From positions 4,526,001 through 4,590,000 of the forward strand of contig NC_089441.1 in NCBI RefSeq assembly GCF_026210795.1: 64,000 bases of DNA. Direction: 5' to 3'. Shown one piece after another: positions 31,821 through 44,500 of the stretch. Position 1 is the first letter of the stretch. Every line of letters begins with the position of its first letter. A program made the translations under genes and the position numbers. Under the pieces are notes generated by a model. The model made no database searches and was not told the DNA's origin. It worked only from the letters and a program-made list of their open reading frames with translations. The DNA comes from Rhizophagus irregularis. Taxonomy: Eukaryota > Glomeromycota > Glomeromycetes > Glomerales > Glomeraceae.

Positions 31821-34387
31821 ATGAGTAATACAATAACAGTTACCAAAATGAAGCCAAAAAACCAGGTTGGAAAAAAAGTTAATAAAGTAATTAATACTTC
31901 TTTAATCTCTCACCAGTCACAACAACAAAATCAAAGTCAACAACAACAACAACAGTCTCATATTTTAAATAGTCAAAGTTCTTTATCCATATCTCGTAAT
32001 AAACATTGGAAATATATTTCTTCTTACCATGGACCATGGCTTCAACTTCCTTTAGAACTTCTTGAATCTTTATATGTGATTAATAATGAAAATGTTTCAA
32101 CTCCTCCATTAATTGATCCAATTATTTTTGGTAATTTGATATCAATTCGTCGTTTAGTAGATGAGGCAGCTGATTTATCCGTTCGTGCAGCTGCAGGAAT
32201 TTCAACAACTGGAGGTGGTCCAACTAGAAGTTCAATGTCTCATACACGACAACATCGAATGCGTGAACTTGCTGTTAATAAGTTAGCTCTTGCTTATCGA
32301 ATTGATGAAATAGCTACAGCTGTGGTAACAATGCAATCTGCTAGTGCAATTGATGAAGTTGCTAGTAAAGTATTAAAGAAGAATCCTACAAATTTGGATG
32401 CGTTATATGTCAATTTTTTTCATGAAAAAATTCCATCAAGGTAAATATAATATAATTTTATTTATTTATTTATTTATTTATTTATTTGTTTTATATCATT
32501 TTTTTTTTTTTTGTTGTTTTTTAATTATGAGAAAATTGATTGGTGTGCGGCAACTGATTTGTTGTGGTGGTACTATAGATAATATTAATCTCGATACGGA
32601 GGATATCTCATTCCCGTTAATTAAAAATTAATAAAATAATAATAATAATAATAATTTTGGCTCCAACCTAATATTTTCACAACTTTTTATCCACCCATTA
32701 TATAAGTAGAATGCTATCACAATCTACGTCCACTGACGTACTTGATCAAATCATTTCAACATCTCCAACAATACCAGAGTTTTATAGAACTCGTGGTGTT
32801 GTTAAATGTTTTAAAGAGGAATTTACTGGTGCTCTCCGTGATTTTAAAATGGCTTTGGCACATGTAAAACATCGAAAACGTGTAAATAATGTTTTACTTG
32901 GAAAAAAATCTACTTTACCTCTTCATAATCATCATGGAAATGATGATGACGAATGTACAGGAACCGAAAGTCAATTATATTTTTTACGTGCTGCTTGTTA
33001 TTTACAATATGCTATTAGTCTAATAGATAAAGCAATTCAAAAAGTTGATGGAGTTGAAAGAAAAGAGGGTGAAGGTAGTGAATTAAGATTAGTGGCTGTT
33101 AAAAAAGGTACAGCTTCTAATCATGGATCTTATTCGAAATTAGAAGAATACAGAAAGGAACTTTTGCCAATAATGAATCAAGTACAGAATTTGGCAAAAC
33201 GTTCGGTGAGAAATTATACTCATTTTCTTAGTTTTTATCCTAACTCATTACCACCTTTTTCACCTATGAATGATGAAACTGCTTCAAAAGGTAGTACACC
33301 TGTAACCTCAAGGGATTCTTCCCCTGCTAGGTCGTTTAAAGAAAAAGAAGATAATGGTTGTTGTTCTTCTTCTTCTTCAAATGGTCATAATGATCACCAG
33401 CCTAATACAAAGTTTTTTGAAAGAACAAGAAAATTTACTGAAAAAGTTACTGGGGTATCATCTGATAACGGAAATAGTTCCTCTACAGCTATTTCAACTT
33501 TTCCTAAAGACCATCATCATCACCATCACCATCATCATCATCATCATCATCACCACCACCATCCTCATAATTTTCATGGATTTCAACAAACTCACACTTT
33601 TGCTACTTATCATCCGTTACTTATTGAAGCTTGGTATGCTATAGCGATCAATTATGTACTTATTGGTGATATTCATACTGGGGCTATGTGGCATTCACGT
33701 ACTTCTGAAATGCATGAATGTATTGATGGATATCCAGTTTTTCTTCCAGCCAGGTCAATGGCACAAGCGGACTATATGGAAGTTTTGGAAAGAATTAAGA
33801 AATCTATTAGTTTATCACAACATGAAAAATTAAGAGAATTAATAGAAGTAGTTAAACAAAAAGAAAAAGAAAGAGAAGAAAAAGAACGTGAATGGGTTAA
33901 ACATCATCATCATCATCATAGGATGCTTTTAGCTGCAGCAGAAGAAGAAAAGGAAGTGAATGAAGGAAAAAAATTTGTAAAAATTGGAAAAAGATCAAAA
34001 AATTTGAAACAAGGAAATAATAATAATAATATTACACCTGTTATAGGTATTGATGGTCAAAGACATCATCCTTGTTGTCCTCTTGCACCCGGAAATCATT
34101 CATCTTCAAAAGAACATAATAATCATCATGTTCATCACCATTCTCATAATTCTGGTTCTTCTATTTCAGCTTCGAATAGTTCTTATTCAAATAATAGTAA
34201 TGGTAGTTCAGGTCCAAGGCAATACCCTTTACATACTCAACGTGCTGATTCTGTTATGATGTGGCTAAAAGCTATAATTTTAAGACAAAAAGAAAATGAT
34301 GGCAAAGCATCTGTTGCTGCTAATACTAATGGTGAAGTTAAGCCTATGATGAATGGTACGAGCACGAAAATTATTGATAATATTTGA
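31821..34387 (+). CDS. TPR-like fungal protein with poly-histidine tracts
   Basis: Two exons, 31821-32440 and 32710-34387, give 765 residues; the junction reads ...VNFFHEKIPSR/MLSQSTSTDVLDQII. An N-terminal poly-Gln stretch precedes a conserved-looking helical region (HRMRELAVNKLALAYRIDEI, ASAIDEVASKVLKKNPTNLD) and a TPR-like repeat (PEFYRTRGVVKCFKEEFTGA). Similar architecture occurs in fungal TPR proteins sometimes named filamentation protein Rhf1; that name is tentative. Around residue 475 there is a run of about 17 His, and other His-rich patches occur at HHHHHH (exon 2 middle) and near the C-terminus. The His runs could bind metal or simply reflect CAT/CAC slippage. The 269-nt intron carries a short open frame, so intron retention would give a truncated product. 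Confidence 0.7.
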
Positions 34388-35148: not shown

Positions 35149-36662
35149 TTATAAAAAGTATTGTCCAACACCAGCTCTAGCAGGAATAGATCTTTCTTGG
35201 TCAGGTACAGCATTAAAAATTTTAAAACTACTCTCATCAATTTGTAAATTTTCATTAATTTGCATAATTGACGCTACATTGCCACATCTATAACAATAAT
35301 TTGGTGCAGACCATACCGTCACTAAATTATCATCAGGAAACATATATTTATATCCTTCTTGCACTAATTGATGTGCTCTAGCTATTAAACTTAGAGCATT
35401 GACATGATTAAACTAATTGGTTTTTTTTATAAAAGAATAAATTATTAATAAATTTTAAACAATATTATTTCAAAATAATATATATAGTACATGTCACTAC
35501 CTCATTCGTTACTTTAGCTCCAAATAACCAGCCAGCACCTCTAGGACTTACAGCCCATGTTTCAATATCTTCGGGATCAGACCACATCAAATCTAAAATA
35601 AAAATTTTGTTTAAAAATTTTTTTTTTAAATTCTTGCTATATATCGTTGTTTATAATTACATTCATACCACAAAAAGCACCCTCATGAGGAATTTCTTGA
35701 GCTCTAGGTATCGTTCTTATTTGGTCTAGTGTCCTAACTTCGGGTGATAATCCACCATGAACACATAAAACACGACCATCTACAATCTAAAATTTTTATT
35801 ATTATTTTAAATAAAATAAGATATTATTTAATATAGCAATAACAAAATAAAAAAAAAAGTAATAAATAATATAACATAATTTATAAAATAAACTTACAGC
35901 TGCTAATGTTAAATAATCAAACACTTGACAACAATATTTCCAAACGTTTGGATTTCCGTATTTTGATTGACACTCGTCTTTTGAGTTTTTTTTTGGAGAA
36001 AAGGTTATTTTGATATAAATTCAAAATAACAATTAATATGTATTATTCTTTGTAAAATGACTTACCATAAAATCCATACACTTGTGTGATTTGTCTACTT
36101 TCATGATTACCTCTCAAAAGTGTAATTTTGTCTGGATATCTATGCGTATATAAAAAAATTATTTAGAACTAACAACTATTCAATAAATTGTTCGATTAAA
36201 ATATTATTACACAAAACCTTGCTTTCAATACCATCAATAAAGTAAATGTTTCTAAACTATAGTAACCTCTGTCAACAAAGTCACCCTAAAATTTTTTTTT
36301 AAAAAAAAAATTATTATCCAAAAATTTGCATAAAGAAGGTTCAATTACTATATTTTGGTAATTACCATAAATATATAATGAGTATCGGGAATTTCTCCTC
36401 CAACATGGAACAATTCTAATAAATCGTAAAACTGTCCATGAATATCTCCGCATACCGTTACAGGTGTATGTACGGGTTGTATATTTGATTCCTCCATTAA
36501 CAATTCTTTAACCTATTAATAAGAAAGTCGTTAAGTCTTAAGAAAAGAGAGTAGAAAGTAGGAAATTACTAAGCTTACCATTTCACACAGTTTTTTCATG
36601 TCAGATTCGGGCAAATACTGGCATTTCCGTATAGTAGCTAACCATTCATCTGGTCCGGCCAT
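35149..36662 (-). CDS. PPP6C: Serine/threonine protein phosphatase PP6 catalytic subunit (Sit4/Ppe1-like)
   Basis: Eight exons (36662-36579, 36512-36366, 36285-36218, 36139-36066, 35977-35898, 35786-35669, 35592-35501, 35412-35149) give 308 residues, normal for the family. Metal-binding and catalytic motifs are intact: GDIHG (residues 50-54), GDFVDRG (78-84), RGNHE (109-113), then [21 protein letters not shown] and [11 protein letters not shown]. The C-terminus GVGQYFL fits the PP2A-like tail (YFL), the target of carboxymethylation and regulatory-subunit binding. KVTNEF and the N-terminal [20 protein letters not shown] favour PP6/Sit4 over PP2A or PP4. Sit4-type enzymes act in the G1/S transition and TOR signalling. 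Confidence 0.92.
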
Positions 36663-37085
36663 TTTTATTACAACAATATAAAATAAAGATATTTTCGGTA
36701 GAATTACTATTTTTTTTTTTAAAAAAAAAAAAGAAAATCGAATATGATCAAACCCCAAAAAGTTTGTTTACTTTTTTAATTAACATTTTAGGGGTGATAA
36801 TTTAAATCATGATTGGATAATTATGATGATGACAAATGGTAAGATCTACATTAACACGTAAGAATTGTAACACAAGATCTAGTTTTTCGCTCCATTGTAC
36901 GTAATTAGTTATATTTTCGGCGAAGTTTATATCGAAGAATAGTTAATTCTTCAGCCTGAATGTAAAACTGTACTTTTAGTCATTGGCTAACTTGAATTGA
37001 ATATAAATATTCACTTTATTTATGATTATATTTAATTAAAACACGTTAACAAAATAAGCTTCCTTATAAAGTTCTTTCCTTCAAA
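36663..37085. other. Intergenic; PP6 promoter side
   Basis: Upstream of PPP6C and downstream of the RING-Ubl-TerD gene A. No specific element recognised. Confidence 0.4.
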
Positions 37086-38443
37086 TTAAATTCCAAAAAA
37101 TTGATCCATATTACCAATAGTTGTTTCAATTGGAGCATAATTTTTTGCATTACCGGCAGACAACTTACCAACTTCAAATACATTCCAGTTACCATCATAA
37201 CCATTTTTTGCAGCAACACACATTATAACAGCTTGTGAAGAAGCAGCAGATTGTATAGTATAAGAACATAATTGTATATCAGGTTTTGAAGGATCAAACA
37301 TTTTAAATGATGGATTTGGAAAATGGCCTATATTTGGTGCATTCCATGAACTTAAAATAAAATATAATTTTGTTACAGTTTGTGGTAATGATGCTAAATT
37401 TGCCGTTATACGATGATGTCCTAAGGATCGAGAATAAGAATTAAATTTTTTTTTTAAAAAAAAAATAAAATAAAATAAAATATAGATAAAATAAAATATA
37501 CGCACCTCTTCTGTTGCTGTGATCCATAACATCACCGGAATGTGCCATATTAGGAATATCATGGAAACTTGTTGATTGATAATCGAAGCGACGCCAAAGT
37601 TGACCAGCATTATTTCCTGTACCCGTATAAAGCATACAAGTACCATCTAGATAATCACATCCAGTTGCAGGATAACCCCAAAATAAATCGAAAGTTAAAG
37701 CATTAATGGATAATTCTTTCGATATAGAGTATAATAATACAATAAGTTGTATGTGACTTTCTGCTACTATGTTGTATTCTGATAATTGAATTTGAACTCT
37801 TCCTTGATTTGTGTAAGTCTAGAATATAATAAGGTGGAATTCTTAGAAAATTTTATTTTTTTAAAATGTTTAAAAGAACTTCCAAACTTACTTGTAGCTC
37901 AACGCCTTTATGAATTAATTTTTGTTTATTAGTTTCAACTTTAGTTTGAGCTTTAATAGCTTCTTTTAGAGCTCCAACGCTTCTAATATGTTCTAGCCTA
38001 AATTTCAATTTTGTACCATTCAATAATACTACATAAAAGTCTCCTGTAGTAGCATTACCATGTCCATCAACTTCACCATTTCGTGCTGGATTTATTTGTG
38101 AATGTGATTGTGAAATGTTATCTACGTCAATTCTAAATGATGCTTTTTCCCATGCTACATTTAAATCCTTAATTTCCTTTGCCTCAAGATTCATTTTACA
38201 TTCTGGACATTGTTTTACTACAGTTTGTTTGTTTCCTGTCTTAGCATTTATATGGTTTATTACACACTTTTGATCCAAAAATGAAGAAAAAGATTAGACC
38301 TTAGTGTGAATTATGCTTAAGAAGGTATAACAAATCAAACTTACCTTTAAACAAAAACTAGAAATATGGTTGCACCTTTGACTAATGGTATCAGTTGGAA
38401 ATTCTCGTGATAATTTATCAACTTTACAATTTGAACACTTCAT
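37086..38443 (-). CDS. RING-ubiquitin-like-TerD fusion protein, paralogue A
   Basis: Exons 38443-38345, 38266-37892, 37818-37506 and 37420-37086 give 373 residues. Residues 3-56 show a C3HC4 RING pattern: C3xxC6, C24xH26, C31xxC34, C53PEC56. Residues about 109-190 look like a ubiquitin fold (DFYVVLLNGTKLKFRLEHIR, NKQKLIHKGVELQ, SEYNIVAESHIQLIVLLYSI). From about 200 the sequence matches the TerD pattern: LTFDLFWGYPATGCDYLDGT, AHSGDVMDHSNRRG, ITANLASLPQTVTKLYFILS, and a FEVGKLSAGNAKNYAPIE end. TerD proteins are calcium-binding stress proteins best known in bacterial tellurite-resistance operons. A RING E3 with Ubl and TerD modules suggests a ubiquitin-ligase-type stress protein, which is inference. 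The acidic DxDxS-type site is altered to DYLDGT. Confidence 0.75.
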
Positions 38444-38819
38444 GTTTTTTTGAAAAAGATAATAATAAAAATATTGTTTAGTTTTTTTGAAAATTAGAAG
38501 CCGCGTTCAAAGGAGTTCATTTACGAAAAAAAACTCAGGCTGGGAATCTTTTATAGCCTACTAAATCAGGTTATTTAACAGGGCAATAAATGGTCAATGT
38601 TTATACAATTTCGGTATTTTGTGTCATAAAATATGCTTTTCAAAAAAAAAAGGATTTTAACCTTATAAATAGGGTTCATACGGATGTTGAAGTAAAATCT
38701 ATCGTGACACGATACCTTATTTTTATTGTTACGAATATCATCAGTATATCAGTATATCAATAAGAATTTCCGTTTATTATTTTACTTATTACACATTACA
38801 AAAATCGAACTGCTATAAT
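38444..38819. promoter_or_regulatory. Shared divergent promoter of the RING-Ubl-TerD pair
   Basis: 376 bp separate the two start codons. It contains ACCTTATAAATAGGG at about 38661-38675, a good TATA-like site for the right-hand gene, and GAATCTTTTATAGCC on the other side near 38555. Two TCAGTATATCA phrases repeat at about 38740-38760. Confidence 0.5.
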
Positions 38820-40147
38820 ATGAAGTGTTCTCAGTGCAAAGGTGATAAACTCTCTAAGGAGTTTCCACCAACGACGGTTACAGAACGTTGTAATCATATT
38901 CCTTCTTATTGCCTAAGAGTAAGTCTCAAGATTTATATTTAATTTTATTTCCTAAAACACAATTCTTTCTTTCCTACTAATTACTTTCAATCATTTCTAC
39001 AACAATAATAAATAGTGTTTGGTAAAAAATTTAGATTTAACAAATACAAATAATCAAAAATCTCGTAAATGTCCCGAATGTCCGGAGAAAATAACTGCAG
39101 AGGAATTAAAGTTATTAACATTAGCATGGGATAAGGCGCCATTTAAAATTGATGTAGATAGCATTGGAAAAGTAAAACTAACACAAAATACTAATGCAGC
39201 GGATGGAAATATTAAGGGAGAAATTTATGTTGTATTATTAAATGGGCAAAAGTGTACTTTTCAATACAATCAAATTAAAAATATTCCTGTATTAAGACAA
39301 GAAATTAGAAAAAAATTAAATGTTGATGAAGGTAAACAAAAATTAATTTTTAATGGTGCTGAATTGCAGGTAATTTATAAAATTATTTATTTGATGTGAG
39401 ATGCAAATTGTTTTCAATTAATTTAAATTCATTTCATTATAAATTTCAGGATCGAAAAGCTGGAGGTGTGCCTAATACATTACAGGATCTTAATATTGGA
39501 CCAGGAAGTCATATTCAATTGATTGTTGTACTTTATAATATTACACGTGCAGAATCCATTAAGAATTTAACCTTTGATTTATTTTGGGGTTATCCCGCAA
39601 ATGGAACTCAAGATTATTTGGATGGAACTTGTTTACTTTACGTGGGGTAAATATTAGAATTTTTTTTTAAAAAAAACAAAATGAACTCTCCCTTGAATTA
39701 ATTTTGTTTTATTATTTTAGTGAAGTATTTTTTAGAAAATATGATTATGCATCAGTATTTTATCCATCATTTCCACATATGAAACATTCAGGCGATTTGA
39801 TGGATAATGCAAATAAAAGAGGTCACCAACGTATCACGGCGAAATTAGATCAATTACCAGCTGAAGTAACCCAATTATATTTCGTTTTGAGTTCGTTTAA
39901 ATCTCCTACTATCGGTCATTTTAAAACTCCTAGTTTTAAGTTGATAGATGAAACTCAACCTGATAAACCTTTATGTTCTTATCAATTAGAACAAGCTGCT
40001 GAATCTCAAGCTGTAATTATGTGTTGTGTATCAAGAGTTGGACAAGGAATGTGGCAGGTCATTCAGATTGGTAAATTAAGTAGGGGTAATGCCGAAGATT
40101 ATGACCCAATTGAATATAGTATTGGTCAATGTGCTTTATTTGGGTAG
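38820..40147 (+). CDS. RING-ubiquitin-like-TerD fusion protein, paralogue B
   Basis: Exons 38820-38918, 39016-39369, 39450-39646 and 39721-40147 give 358 residues, collinear with paralogue A. The RING cysteines are kept (C3xxC6, C24xH26, C31xxC34, CPEC at 52-55), the Ubl region reads GEIYVVLLNGQKCTFQYNQI and GKQKLIFNGAELQ, and the TerD-like region reads LTFDLFWGYPANGTQDYLDG, KHSGDLMDNANKRGHQRI and VTQLYFVLSSFKSPTIGHFK, ending IGKLSRGNAEDYDPIEYSI. The first two introns fall at the same places as in paralogue A; the third does not. The segment after CLLYVG is shorter than in A. Head-to-head layout suggests a local inverted duplication and possible co-regulation. Confidence 0.75.
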
Positions 40148-41562
40148 ATTACATAAGTTATGTGAAGATTGCTTATCTAATAGAAATATTTATAGCGAAT
40201 TTTATGAATTTAACTGCTATTGTGTATGATTTTTCTTATAGTGATGTATCTTTCACTAAAGAATAAACTTGTTTATTAAATAAAAGAATTTTTTTGCATT
40301 ATATTTTATATTTAGTTCATTTGTTTCGTCTCATTGAGATGCCATTTGTTTTATATTGGTATCACCTGATCTGCTTCTTCATAATATAAATTTGAGAGAA
40401 TTTTATTTGTAGTAGCAGATATTAATAATTTATATACGAAATAAAAAATGTGCTGTACATTGCCAATTTTTTGTAAATATAGCATTAAGTTTTCATCAAT
40501 TTGGCATCTAGTATTGATTCAAATTCCTTTATTATTATCAGATTTCACTATGAAATCAATTTTGTTATATAATTCTTTACTTATAATCCAATTGAATTTT
40601 TTTTTTAATAAATCGTGAAATTTTTCATTCATATTCTTATTTTTATTTGAATTTAATATAATTCATATAACTTCTCTTAAATACTGCTATAAGTATTCTA
40701 AAATTTATTATACATAAAAACTTTATATAAAATTCCACATTTTTGAAATACATTAAAAATAATTTTAGAATTATTAAAATGTATTTATATTTTATCTATA
40801 TTTAAGAATAAATCAAATATTTTTTTTAATTAAATTCATTTCAATTGTATAAATATATATATTAGTAATCTATAAATTAGAATTTTATTAGTATATATAA
40901 ATTGTATTTTAATTAGTAAGAAGAGTTTAAGGATAATTTTTAATTTTTTATAATTGTATTGTGAAGTTTTAATTATATTAATATAGAAACATTATATTAT
41001 AAATATAGAAACATTATATTCCTTATATTGTACAATATGTACAATATCTCAGTTCCGAATTAAAGTACCTCCTGTCACGGCTACCAGGATTGTTAAAAAT
41101 TTAGCCTACATTATGCTACAAATGTTAATACAGTAAATTATCAACCCCTGAAAAATTCCACCTAATAATTTAGTAATTTGAACCCTTGAAAATTTTGCTG
41201 CGCAACGTTTACAAACATTCTATTTCCTAACACTTTAAATAAAATAGATACTGATTATTTGAATTAAAATAATTTAAGGTTTATTATATCCGACAAAAAA
41301 AAATTATTTCTTTTTCAAGACCACGTCCAAGGAATTTAAATAACGCTCGCTGGCGAGACGACTTCCACACTACCATCATCGTCATCATTGTTCAACTTAG
41401 TTACTCCCAAAAAGGTTTTAAAAAGACTTTAGGAATAAACAAAATTTTAATATTTAGGACAAGTAAAAACCTATTATTTACACGCCTCTACTCAACAAAA
41501 AAATACATTTAACCTTGTTCATTAAAAAACGAAAAATTTGATCACGAAACTTCAAATTAAAT
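40148..41562. other. Intergenic, 1.4 kb
   Basis: A+T-rich, no gene seen. A short GC-richer stretch at about 41335-41365 includes the self-complementary CTCGCTGGCGAG. The final few hundred bases serve as the CDC24 promoter. Confidence 0.5.
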
Positions 41563-44500
41563 ATGAATAAAAGCGGACTTAAACGTACACCAAGTTTAGG
41601 AACCATTCCTAGTTTCGGCAGTCTTTCCATTTCTTCAATAGAATCACCAAAACCAACGAGTTCAAATGCTCTCAATCGACCTGCACAAGCATCACAATCA
41701 TTGTATCCGTTATGTTTAGATTTATTAGAACGACTTTATTGTGTGGAAGGGTTTGAAAAATATTTGATTCAAGGACAGAACAATATGCCAAATAATTCTT
41801 CAATAGTGGGTACTCCCACTACAGAAAATGGTCCAAATAATATAATTCGTAATGATCCTGTTACTCTCTTATGGCAAACCTTTCGTTTAGGACATCCACT
41901 CTGCGTGCTTTTCAATGCTTTAAAACCTCAAAAAGAAGCGATAATAGAGGAAACAAAACCTGGTACTAGTGAAATCAAAACCAGTCAAAAGAATGTATTT
42001 CACTTTTTGATGGGCTGTCGAGAAGAATTGAAGTTAGAACCAGGGCAAATGTTTACAATTTCACAGTTGTATAAGGATGATACGAATGGCTTCGTCAAAG
42101 TATGTTATTAATTTAATTTATTATCTGAGGGGAATAGTTTTTACTCTTATGGTTATAATTTAATTTTAAAAATTATTATAGCTTAATTGTTCTCTAAATT
42201 CTTTTTGACTATAAATTTTTGTAGGTAATTGACACGGTCAAACTTGTTACTGACAAAATTGAAGAAAAAGGTTTTCTCGAATTGTCTCGCAGACAACTTT
42301 TACGAAACTCAGATCCCATGAAACCCACTGATAATCGTGCTAAGGTTGTGCATGAATTATTGGAAACCGAAAGAAAATATGTGCAAGATATGGAAGTTTT
42401 ACAGGTAAAATAATTTAGCATATAAAAACAATTTATTCTTATTTATGTTAAAAAAAAATTTTTTTTTCTAGCATTTTGCACGTGAACTTCAAATTCAAGA
42501 AATTGTTAGCGCGGATACTATTCATTTGCTTTTCGCAAACCTTAACCAACTTGTAGATTTTCAACGTCGTTTCCTTATCGGTGTAGAAGCCATTGCCAGT
42601 CAACCACCAGCAGAACAAAGATTTGGAAATCTTTTTGTGCAAATGGTTGTCCATTAGCTATAAGAATTAAAGTTATTTATTTTTTTTTTTATTTTTCAAT
42701 TTTAATACTAAATAGTAAAATTTTGTTATAATAATAATCATATTTAGGAGGAAAACTTTGCCGTATACGAACCATTCTGTGCAAATTATCAGTCTGCGTC
42801 AGAATTAGTCATCCAAGAAACACCCAATTTGCAGGTATAAATTATATTTCGGTTTCATTTTTTCTTTTTTTAAAAAAAAAAAATTTAAATATTTAATTAA
42901 TGATTTTTTTTATCAATTTAGAAATTGGCTAACATAGTTGAACCAACGTACGTATTACCATCATTATTAATTAAGCCCATTCAGCGCATTTGTAAATATC
43001 CATTATTATTACAGGTAAATGACCATATAAGTATATTAAAAATAATTTTGCTATATAAAGTTTATTTATAAATTTGTACATGATCAATTCTAGGAATTAT
43101 TAAAATATTCTGATAAGGATGAAACACCTTATTATGATGAAATTGAACGAGGTCTTAAAGCTATTAAACGTGTGGCTGATCGAGTTAATGAAACACGACG
43201 AAAACAAGAAAATGAAGCTGTTGTAAAAGATCTAGAACGTAGAGTTGAAGACTGGAAGGGGCATAAAATTTCTCAATTTGGCAACTTATTACTCGAAGAT
43301 GTGTTTATTATGTCAAAGGAAGATTCTGAGCGAGAATATCATGTGTATTTATTTGAAAAAATCCTGCTTTGTTGTAAAGAGACTAATACTAAAAAACCTC
43401 AAAGCAAACCTAGTCCACTGATTAAGGGTTCTAACAGAAAGCAAAAAAGAGCCAGTTTACAACTTAAAGGAAGAATTTTTATACATAATATAACGGCTGT
43501 TGTAAACAATAGTCGGGCTGGATGTAAGTCGCATTAATTTGTTTAAATATGAAAATTTTTATGGTATAAAATTATTTACATTTTTTTTTTTTTCATCAGT
43601 ATGGTCTTTGAAAGTATTCTGGAGAGGAGATACAGAAATGGAATCTTTCTCACTTAAGTGTCGTAATGAAGAACAACTTAATCAATGGCAATCCACATTA
43701 GAAAAACTGCTCGCGGATTTCAAAAACCGACATAAAGATGAGTCGGTGAAACCTGTTACTAAACGTACTCAGGTTTCTAATACTCAATTGGCATCTTTAC
43801 AGAATCTTGACGTATATTCTCGTCGCGACGATGATGCTGCTTCGTTTATTGATGAGGATGAGGATGAGGATGATTATGAAGAAGAAGAATTGGAAGACGA
43901 TTGGGAAGATAATAAAGTCAAAAGTCGATCACTGCCTTATGGACAATATCCTAAAACTGGCTATAATGGAAGAAATAGACCACGAACTGAAGATGCTCCA
44001 CCACCTTATAACTGGTCTCCTCCATTACCACCAAGCGTCCCTAGTGTCCCACCTCAACATCGATCTCTTACGAATATATCATCCTTATCGCGTAATGGAA
44101 CTCCTACTAGTCCATCCAATTCCATACATCAAGGAGAAAATGCAAGCTATTTTCCCAATTCTCCTCCGCCGTCTTATCCAGTTTCTCCAGCTCAATCTGT
44201 CCGTAGTAGTGCTAGTCATTCCAACTTAAAGGGTACATGGCAAAGACAAAGTATCGAGCCTCTTACAGATACAATTACCAGATTTATGATGGGAAATGAT
44301 GATGATTACGTAGAAGTTCAACCACCGCAACGTGCGACTACTGGTCAAACCTATCAAATTAATAATGGATCTTCACCAGCATTACAACAAACATCAGCAT
44401 CGAATTATAATCGTTTACGGTCGGCAAGTAGTCCAAATATTCAATCAATTAAAGAACAATGGGAAGAGTTGGAATCTCTTCCTACTAATGACAATGTCCA

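Follow-up and report, generated by a model that had tools for sequence, protein, structure and literature searches.

A gene family of Rhizophagus irregularis that joins a RING-like zinc module, a ubiquitin-like domain, and a TerD-like domain in one protein

In a 64,000-nucleotide stretch of Rhizophagus irregularis DNA (the window; bases 4526001-4590000 of contig C13, in a genome of 146,748,485 bases and 32 contigs), two divergent genes encode related proteins that combine an N-terminal zinc module, an internal ubiquitin-like domain (Ubl), and a C-terminal TerD-like domain. Positions given without a contig are those of the window. Gene A (copy A0; 37086..38443, minus strand, 373 amino acids) comprises exons 38443-38345, 38266-37892, 37818-37506, and 37420-37086, and gene B (copy B0; 38820..40147, plus strand, 358 amino acids) comprises exons 38820-38918, 39016-39369, 39450-39646, and 39721-40147. 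The genes stand head to head with their start codons 376 bp apart, and their stop codons end exactly at 37086 (gene A) and 40147 (gene B). The initial annotation of this DNA had proposed such a head-to-head pair, with RING, Ubl, and TerD-like domains in one protein. Both points held: the coordinates were exact, each gene has four exons, and after GT-AG splicing a single frame spans all three domains in A and in B. A control spliced alignment, with the other gene's protein as the query, gave identical introns for both genes, whose products are 51% identical. Low GC content throughout the window (17-34% in 2-kb bins), the GT-AG introns, and an adjoining gene with CDC24 and PH domains are consistent with a fungus. 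The annotated observation is real and beyond chance, and its interpretation is partly right.

Protein searches of the same genome recovered six more full-length copies, bringing the family to at least eight, and two partial ones; the copy number is a lower bound because the genome search scores best candidates only, and the spans given for the paralogs are those of their aligned parts. B1 (3187333-3188642, plus strand), B2 (3208635-3209985, plus strand), and B3 (3470119-3468805, minus strand) lie on contig C16, and A1 (2424258-2422967, minus strand), A2 (2431876-2430536, minus strand), and A3 (2432898-2434283, plus strand) on contig C27. All eight full-length copies are free of stops and consist of four exons encoding all three domains. 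The first two introns are both in phase 0 and each fall in one alignment column in 8/8 copies, intron 1 after residue 33 and intron 2 after EL[QKE]; the column of intron 3 is common to the four A copies (phase 1), and the four B copies share a different one (phase 2). At E <= 1e-3, ubiquitin and TerD were each matched in Pfam by every member. Separate trees of the zinc module, the Ubl, and the TerD domain split A from B with support of 0.999-1.0 (linker, 0.993), and since each domain's tree makes this split, the fusion is older than the A/B duplication.

One of the partial copies lies near a contig end (C4, 1894-2171; <2.2 kb) and matches the end of gene A at 87-88% identity, with sequence after the stop that resembles that of the window; the other (C1, 2120530-2121164) is B-like and decayed, with internal stops. 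A2 and A3 form a second head-to-head pair (C27, 2430536-2434283), 1021 bp apart and both of the A type. In B3, introns 2 and 3 (C16:3469226-3469563) measure 87 and 78 bases within a 375-amino-acid open frame; as both lengths are multiples of three, intron retention would preserve the frame.

The TerD-like domain covers residues ~188-373 of protein A (37089..37731, minus strand, interrupted by intron 3, 37505-37421) and residues ~181-358 of protein B (39537..40144, plus strand, interrupted by intron 3, 39647-39720). The Pfam model PF02342 matched B with 35.0 bits (E 1.3e-8), over its cut-off of 25.3, and A with 19.7 bits (E 6.3e-4), under it; this comparison concerns A0 and B0 only, the other six members having been judged at E <= 1e-3. 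When a family TerD profile was compared with solved structures, 3ibz (1.2e-5) and 2kxt (2.3e-4) led the 11 matches at E <= 10, and the remainder were integrin chains at 0.26 or worse. Plasmid records gave 2479 matches, the ten best of which are TerD/TerZ family proteins with ~26% identity (best E, 1e-5). These profile matches, with B over the cut-off and all members within the E threshold, bear out the annotated TerD-like domain.

The calcium sites of Klebsiella TerD comprise residues 40, 41, 42, 78, 79, 89 and 29, 82, 84, 88 (PMC8779313). Alignments in three concordant MAFFT modes place these positions in the family. The ligands D40, N79, and D88 are absent from 8/8 members (position 40 falls in a gap), G82 and G84 are replaced in 8/8, E89 is kept in 1/8, D42 in 6/8, and D78 in 7/8, and the positions of W29 and L41 are kept throughout. 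Judged from these alignments, the TerD fold signature is retained and most of the calcium site is lost, which would speak against the calcium binding envisaged by the initial annotation. Nor was the context of a tellurite operon found: exon-by-exon searches with TerB, TerC, and TelA profiles, which could miss a divergent gene, gave 0 matches each in this genome, and among 14 control genomes they matched in 4, 9, and 3, respectively. With the calcium ligands largely gone and no TerB, TerC, or TelA match, a bacterial-style role in calcium or tellurite handling is unlikely. A genome search with PF02342 yielded four matches from five candidates, all last exons of the four B copies; no stand-alone TerD gene was seen in this search, the reach of which is limited because it also failed to detect the A copies.

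The Ubl lies at residues 113-181 of protein A (37750..38029, minus strand, interrupted by intron 2, 37891-37819) and at residues ~102-180 of protein B (39220..39536, plus strand, interrupted by intron 2, 39370-39449), where B aligns with ubiquitin. As annotated, it is a ubiquitin-like segment: PF00240 scored 27.1 bits in A and 30.3 bits in B, both over the cut-off of 25.4, and the match to ubiquitin extends over residues ~102-177. In an alignment to the ubiquitin sequence, the position of Leu8 is Leu in 8/8 members and that of Ile44 is Ile in 6/8, with Ser in A1 and A2. The domain is internal, is followed by TerD, and has no free C-terminal Gly-Gly, so it is no conjugatable modifier. None of the eight full-length members matched IBR at E <= 1, and the organization is not that of a parkin-type RBR protein; IBR_1 gave insignificant matches on two fragments only (E 0.65 and 3).

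The zinc module occupies residues ~1-60 of protein A (38186..38443, minus strand, interrupted by intron 1, 38344-38267) and residues 1-60 of protein B (38820..39096, plus strand, interrupted by intron 1, 38919-39015). Its pattern, C-x2-C-x17-C-x-H-x4-C-x2-C-x13-18-C-P-E-C, is present in 8/8 members. Seven Cys columns and His26, that is, all eight C3HC4 ligands, are invariant in a module where roughly one position in two differs between A and B. Under random placement (81 columns, 21 invariant), the chance that eight ligand columns are all invariant is ~6e-6, a figure that is indicative only, because Cys is conserved in general. Whole proteins A and B score 12.4 and 11.3 bits with zf-C3HC4, far under the Pfam cut-off of 21. 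With N-terminal fragments of 63-68 amino acids, zf-C3HC4 is the best Pfam match in 7/8 members (E 0.0022-0.031), covering the motif only partly in two of the seven. The annotated C3HC4 RING is thus upheld in its eight-ligand pattern but not in any Pfam RING model scoring over its cut-off, and the module is called RING-like here; of the three domains, the RING is the least certain.

The domains differ in how strongly they are constrained. In clade A, pooled omega is 0.34 for the RING part, 0.39 for the linker, 0.24 for the Ubl, and 0.28 for TerD, and 0, 2, 0, and 0 of 500 bootstraps, respectively, reach omega >= 1. The corresponding values in clade B are 0.35, 0.57, 0.77, and 0.78, with 0, 45, 105, and 74 of 500 bootstraps at omega >= 1, and single pairs exceed 1 (B1-B3 linker, 1.77; B2-B3 TerD, 1.15). 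In A as in B the RING part is under constraint, and the Ubl and TerD of clade B evolve faster. Positive selection in clade B is not claimed: for Ubl and TerD, pooled omega stays under 1 with a bootstrap range that takes in 1, and relaxed constraint fits the pattern as well. The clade B values are uncertain because conversion also lowers synonymous divergence (dS) locally.

Copy B3 is a mosaic. It is mostly B1-like, 79 of 430 informative sites being B2-like, and contains one run in which 31 of 33 informative sites are B2-like; 0 of 10,000 shuffles attain that run. The B2-like stretch takes in a portion of intron 3 together with the TerD segment that has the former calcium loop, and the 3' flank is B1-like again. 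We read this tract, which lies in B3 on contig C16 and whose equivalent in B0 is 39688..39883 (plus strand), as gene conversion from a B2-like donor.

Between the two genes of the window lies a divergent intergenic region of 376 bp (38444..38819), a putative shared promoter. Two of its blocks, ~38564-38647 and 38777-38819, are similar to sequence upstream of B1-B3, with ~78-94% identity in blastn (best E: B1, 1.4e-12; B2, 3e-19; B3, 3.8e-18) and are candidate shared promoter elements. Of the other A copies, A1 alone was compared, and its upstream region has no match to the A0-B0 intergenic region. An ancestral promoter common to both head-to-head pairs was considered and dropped, the best match between the A0-B0 and A2-A3 regions being 22 bp at E 0.01. 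The same applies to heat-shock-like elements: among the regions scanned, which were those upstream of B1-B3 and the one between A0 and B0, a TTCnnGAA box stands in front of B1 and B3 only and is absent from the other two.

On the far side of gene B, the adjoining gene (41542-43537, plus strand) has CDC24 calponin-like and PH domains and is of the Cdc24-type RhoGEF kind. Beyond gene A, a gene at 35149-36662 (minus strand) resembles a PP2A-type phosphatase catalytic subunit by eye, with no Pfam match at E <= 1e-3 in the two exons scanned; it is followed by a long open reading frame at 32672-34384 (plus strand) with a 17-histidine run, other low-complexity stretches, and no Pfam match. Introns and intergenic DNA here contain T-runs directly followed by A-runs of similar length (36292-36310, 36710-36732, 37446-37465, and 39660-39676), and the window as a whole holds 12 T7+A7+ stretches and 5 in the reverse order. 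Among seven flanks of the copies on C16 and C27, the open reading frames beside B1 look kinase-like by eye.

Several known systems resemble the family in part. In parkin, UHRF1, RBBP6, and PCGF proteins, a single chain carries both a RING-type module and a ubiquitin-like domain; in PCGF proteins the RING precedes the ubiquitin-like domain. The A/B family shares this combination; it differs from them in its C-terminal TerD domain and in a RING under the Pfam cut-off, and its full-length members match none of IBR, SRA, and B-box at E <= 1. TRIM proteins with SPRY form a multigene family with a RING in front and a variable beta-sandwich behind. By analogy only, the A/B family is alike in its RING-type front, its beta-sandwich back, and its multigene nature, but it has TerD instead, and neither B-box nor SPRY is matched at E <= 1. 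The fungal domain matches bacterial TerD (PF02342; Klebsiella TerD 2kxt and the TerD-like 3ibz) significantly by profile along most of its length, but it is fused to a zinc module and a Ubl, has lost most Ca2+ ligands, and stands in a genome without TerB, TerC, or TelA matches.

Eukaryotic TerD proteins as such are already known. CapA and CapB of Dictyostelium are TerD-type proteins ascribed to bacterial origin (PMC3188802), and a TerD_like gene of anaerobic gut fungi is listed as a bacterial transfer (PMC10978972). These proteins, compared by description only, share a TerD-type domain in a eukaryote with the A/B family, and the accessible portions of the two sources mention neither RING nor Ubl for them. 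The initial annotation was aware of no description of the combined architecture, and a literature search of titles and abstract starts agrees, finding no zinc module, Ubl, and TerD combination among the matches listed; the TerD review of Anantharaman et al. 2012 may list eukaryotic fusions. Words starting with TerD or tellur do not occur in the main text of two papers on horizontal transfer in Rhizophagus or early fungi (PMC5982333, PMC11291939). Searches of bacterial and archaeal genomes and virus contigs with the TerD alignment and the full family alignment confirmed no relative, a result that, because of the content of these databases, is uninformative on other fungi. Protein B0 had no match at E 0.1 among 50,697 phage records, and PADLOC matched 0/8 members.

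Taken together, A and B are candidates for a RING-type ubiquitin ligase or adaptor in which TerD would be the recognition domain, a reading drawn from sequence comparison that we consider about evenly balanced. The C3HC4 module would bind two zinc ions and recruit a ubiquitin-charged E2 or a partner RING, and the internal Ubl may serve to dock it on the proteasome or on proteins that bind ubiquitin. The bacterial-type TerD beta-sandwich, without most of the known Ca ligands, would recognise either a substrate or some stress ligand; a nucleotide-like molecule is one possibility, in line with the specialised nucleotide derivatives suggested for TerD domains in PMC7159879. A bolder version, which we think unlikely, makes the family the fungal counterpart of TRIM-type recognition ligases, marking foreign or damaged molecules for ubiquitin-dependent removal; the RING-like module in front would stay under constraint, and TerD, freed from calcium binding, would diversify as the recognition domain, in clustered copies reshuffled by gene conversion.

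Several results weigh against the main reading. The Pfam RING cut-off is passed by 0/8 members (best zf-C3HC4, 18.3 bits against 21), and the fragment of A2 has no RING match in Pfam at all. Compared with solved structures, the family profile of the zinc part finds RINGs weakly (BRE1A, E 0.042 and 0.55), and C2H2 zinc-finger arrays, matching only around CPEC, rank above BRE1A (best 1.6e-4). RING domains usually contact the E2 through a hydrophobic residue before the second Cys and an Arg after the last Cys; here the former is present in 1/8 members (A3) and polar in 7/8, and the latter in 0/8. The His-x4-Cys spacing also exceeds that of a usual RING, and in clade B clear constraint is confined to the RING part and does not extend to Ubl and TerD. 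The main rival is a noncatalytic adaptor, in which the zinc module would be a RING-derived dimerisation or scaffold module and the protein a Ubl-TerD shuttle or adaptor that delivers clients bound by TerD to the proteasome or a different ligase. We regard it as possible, if on balance doubtful. The mostly absent canonical E2-contact positions and the low RING scores favor it, as does the resemblance of the Ubl to Rad23-type shuttle Ubls (rad23 model in 5/8 members, best E 0.0013, in NCBIfam, which gave weak matches only). However, no UBA is found among the Pfam matches at E <= 1, the UBX-like match is weak (OTU1_UBXL, 2/8 members, best E 0.014), and nowhere is clade B more constrained than in its RING part, where all the zinc ligands persist.

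The remaining explanations appear less compatible with these data. A calcium or metalloid-stress protein acting like bacterial TerD (Ca2+, tellurite, oxidative stress), with the ubiquitin domains secondary, would be in keeping with the significant TerD match and with the retention of W29, L41, and, in most members, D78 and D42; given the loss of D40, N79, and D88 throughout and of E89 in all but one member, and a genome in which the exon-wise search, able to miss a divergent gene, found no TerB, TerC, or TelA, it is improbable. That the family is decaying under weak selection, clade B being without a maintained function, is very improbable: the high clade B omega of Ubl and TerD with their bootstraps at or above 1, the pairs exceeding 1, and the broken or partial copies on C4 and C1 point that way, but all eight full-length copies are open, none of 500 bootstraps reaches 1 for the clade B RING, and in clade A the RING, Ubl, and TerD are constrained, with the linker at 1 or above in just two bootstraps. 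Barely credible is a gene-model artefact, in which exons from separate transcripts would place the domains in different proteins, considering the identical domain order and introns 1 and 2 in eight in-frame copies on three contigs, the recovery of each window gene by spliced alignment from the other's protein, and the Ubl and TerD matches that cross introns 2 and 3, respectively, in both A and B.

In bacteria, TerD is a widespread domain of stress and phage resistance. A family that keeps its signature, minus most of the calcium site, and joins it to domains of the ubiquitin pathway uncouples recognition from the binding of calcium, and the binding partners or ubiquitination targets of the fungal protein offer a tractable route to the TerD ligand. 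A bacterial-type domain may here be used in the protein-tagging machinery of a fungus; if the ligase reading is true, TerD would add a novel type to the recognition domains of ubiquitin ligases, in a plant-symbiotic fungus.

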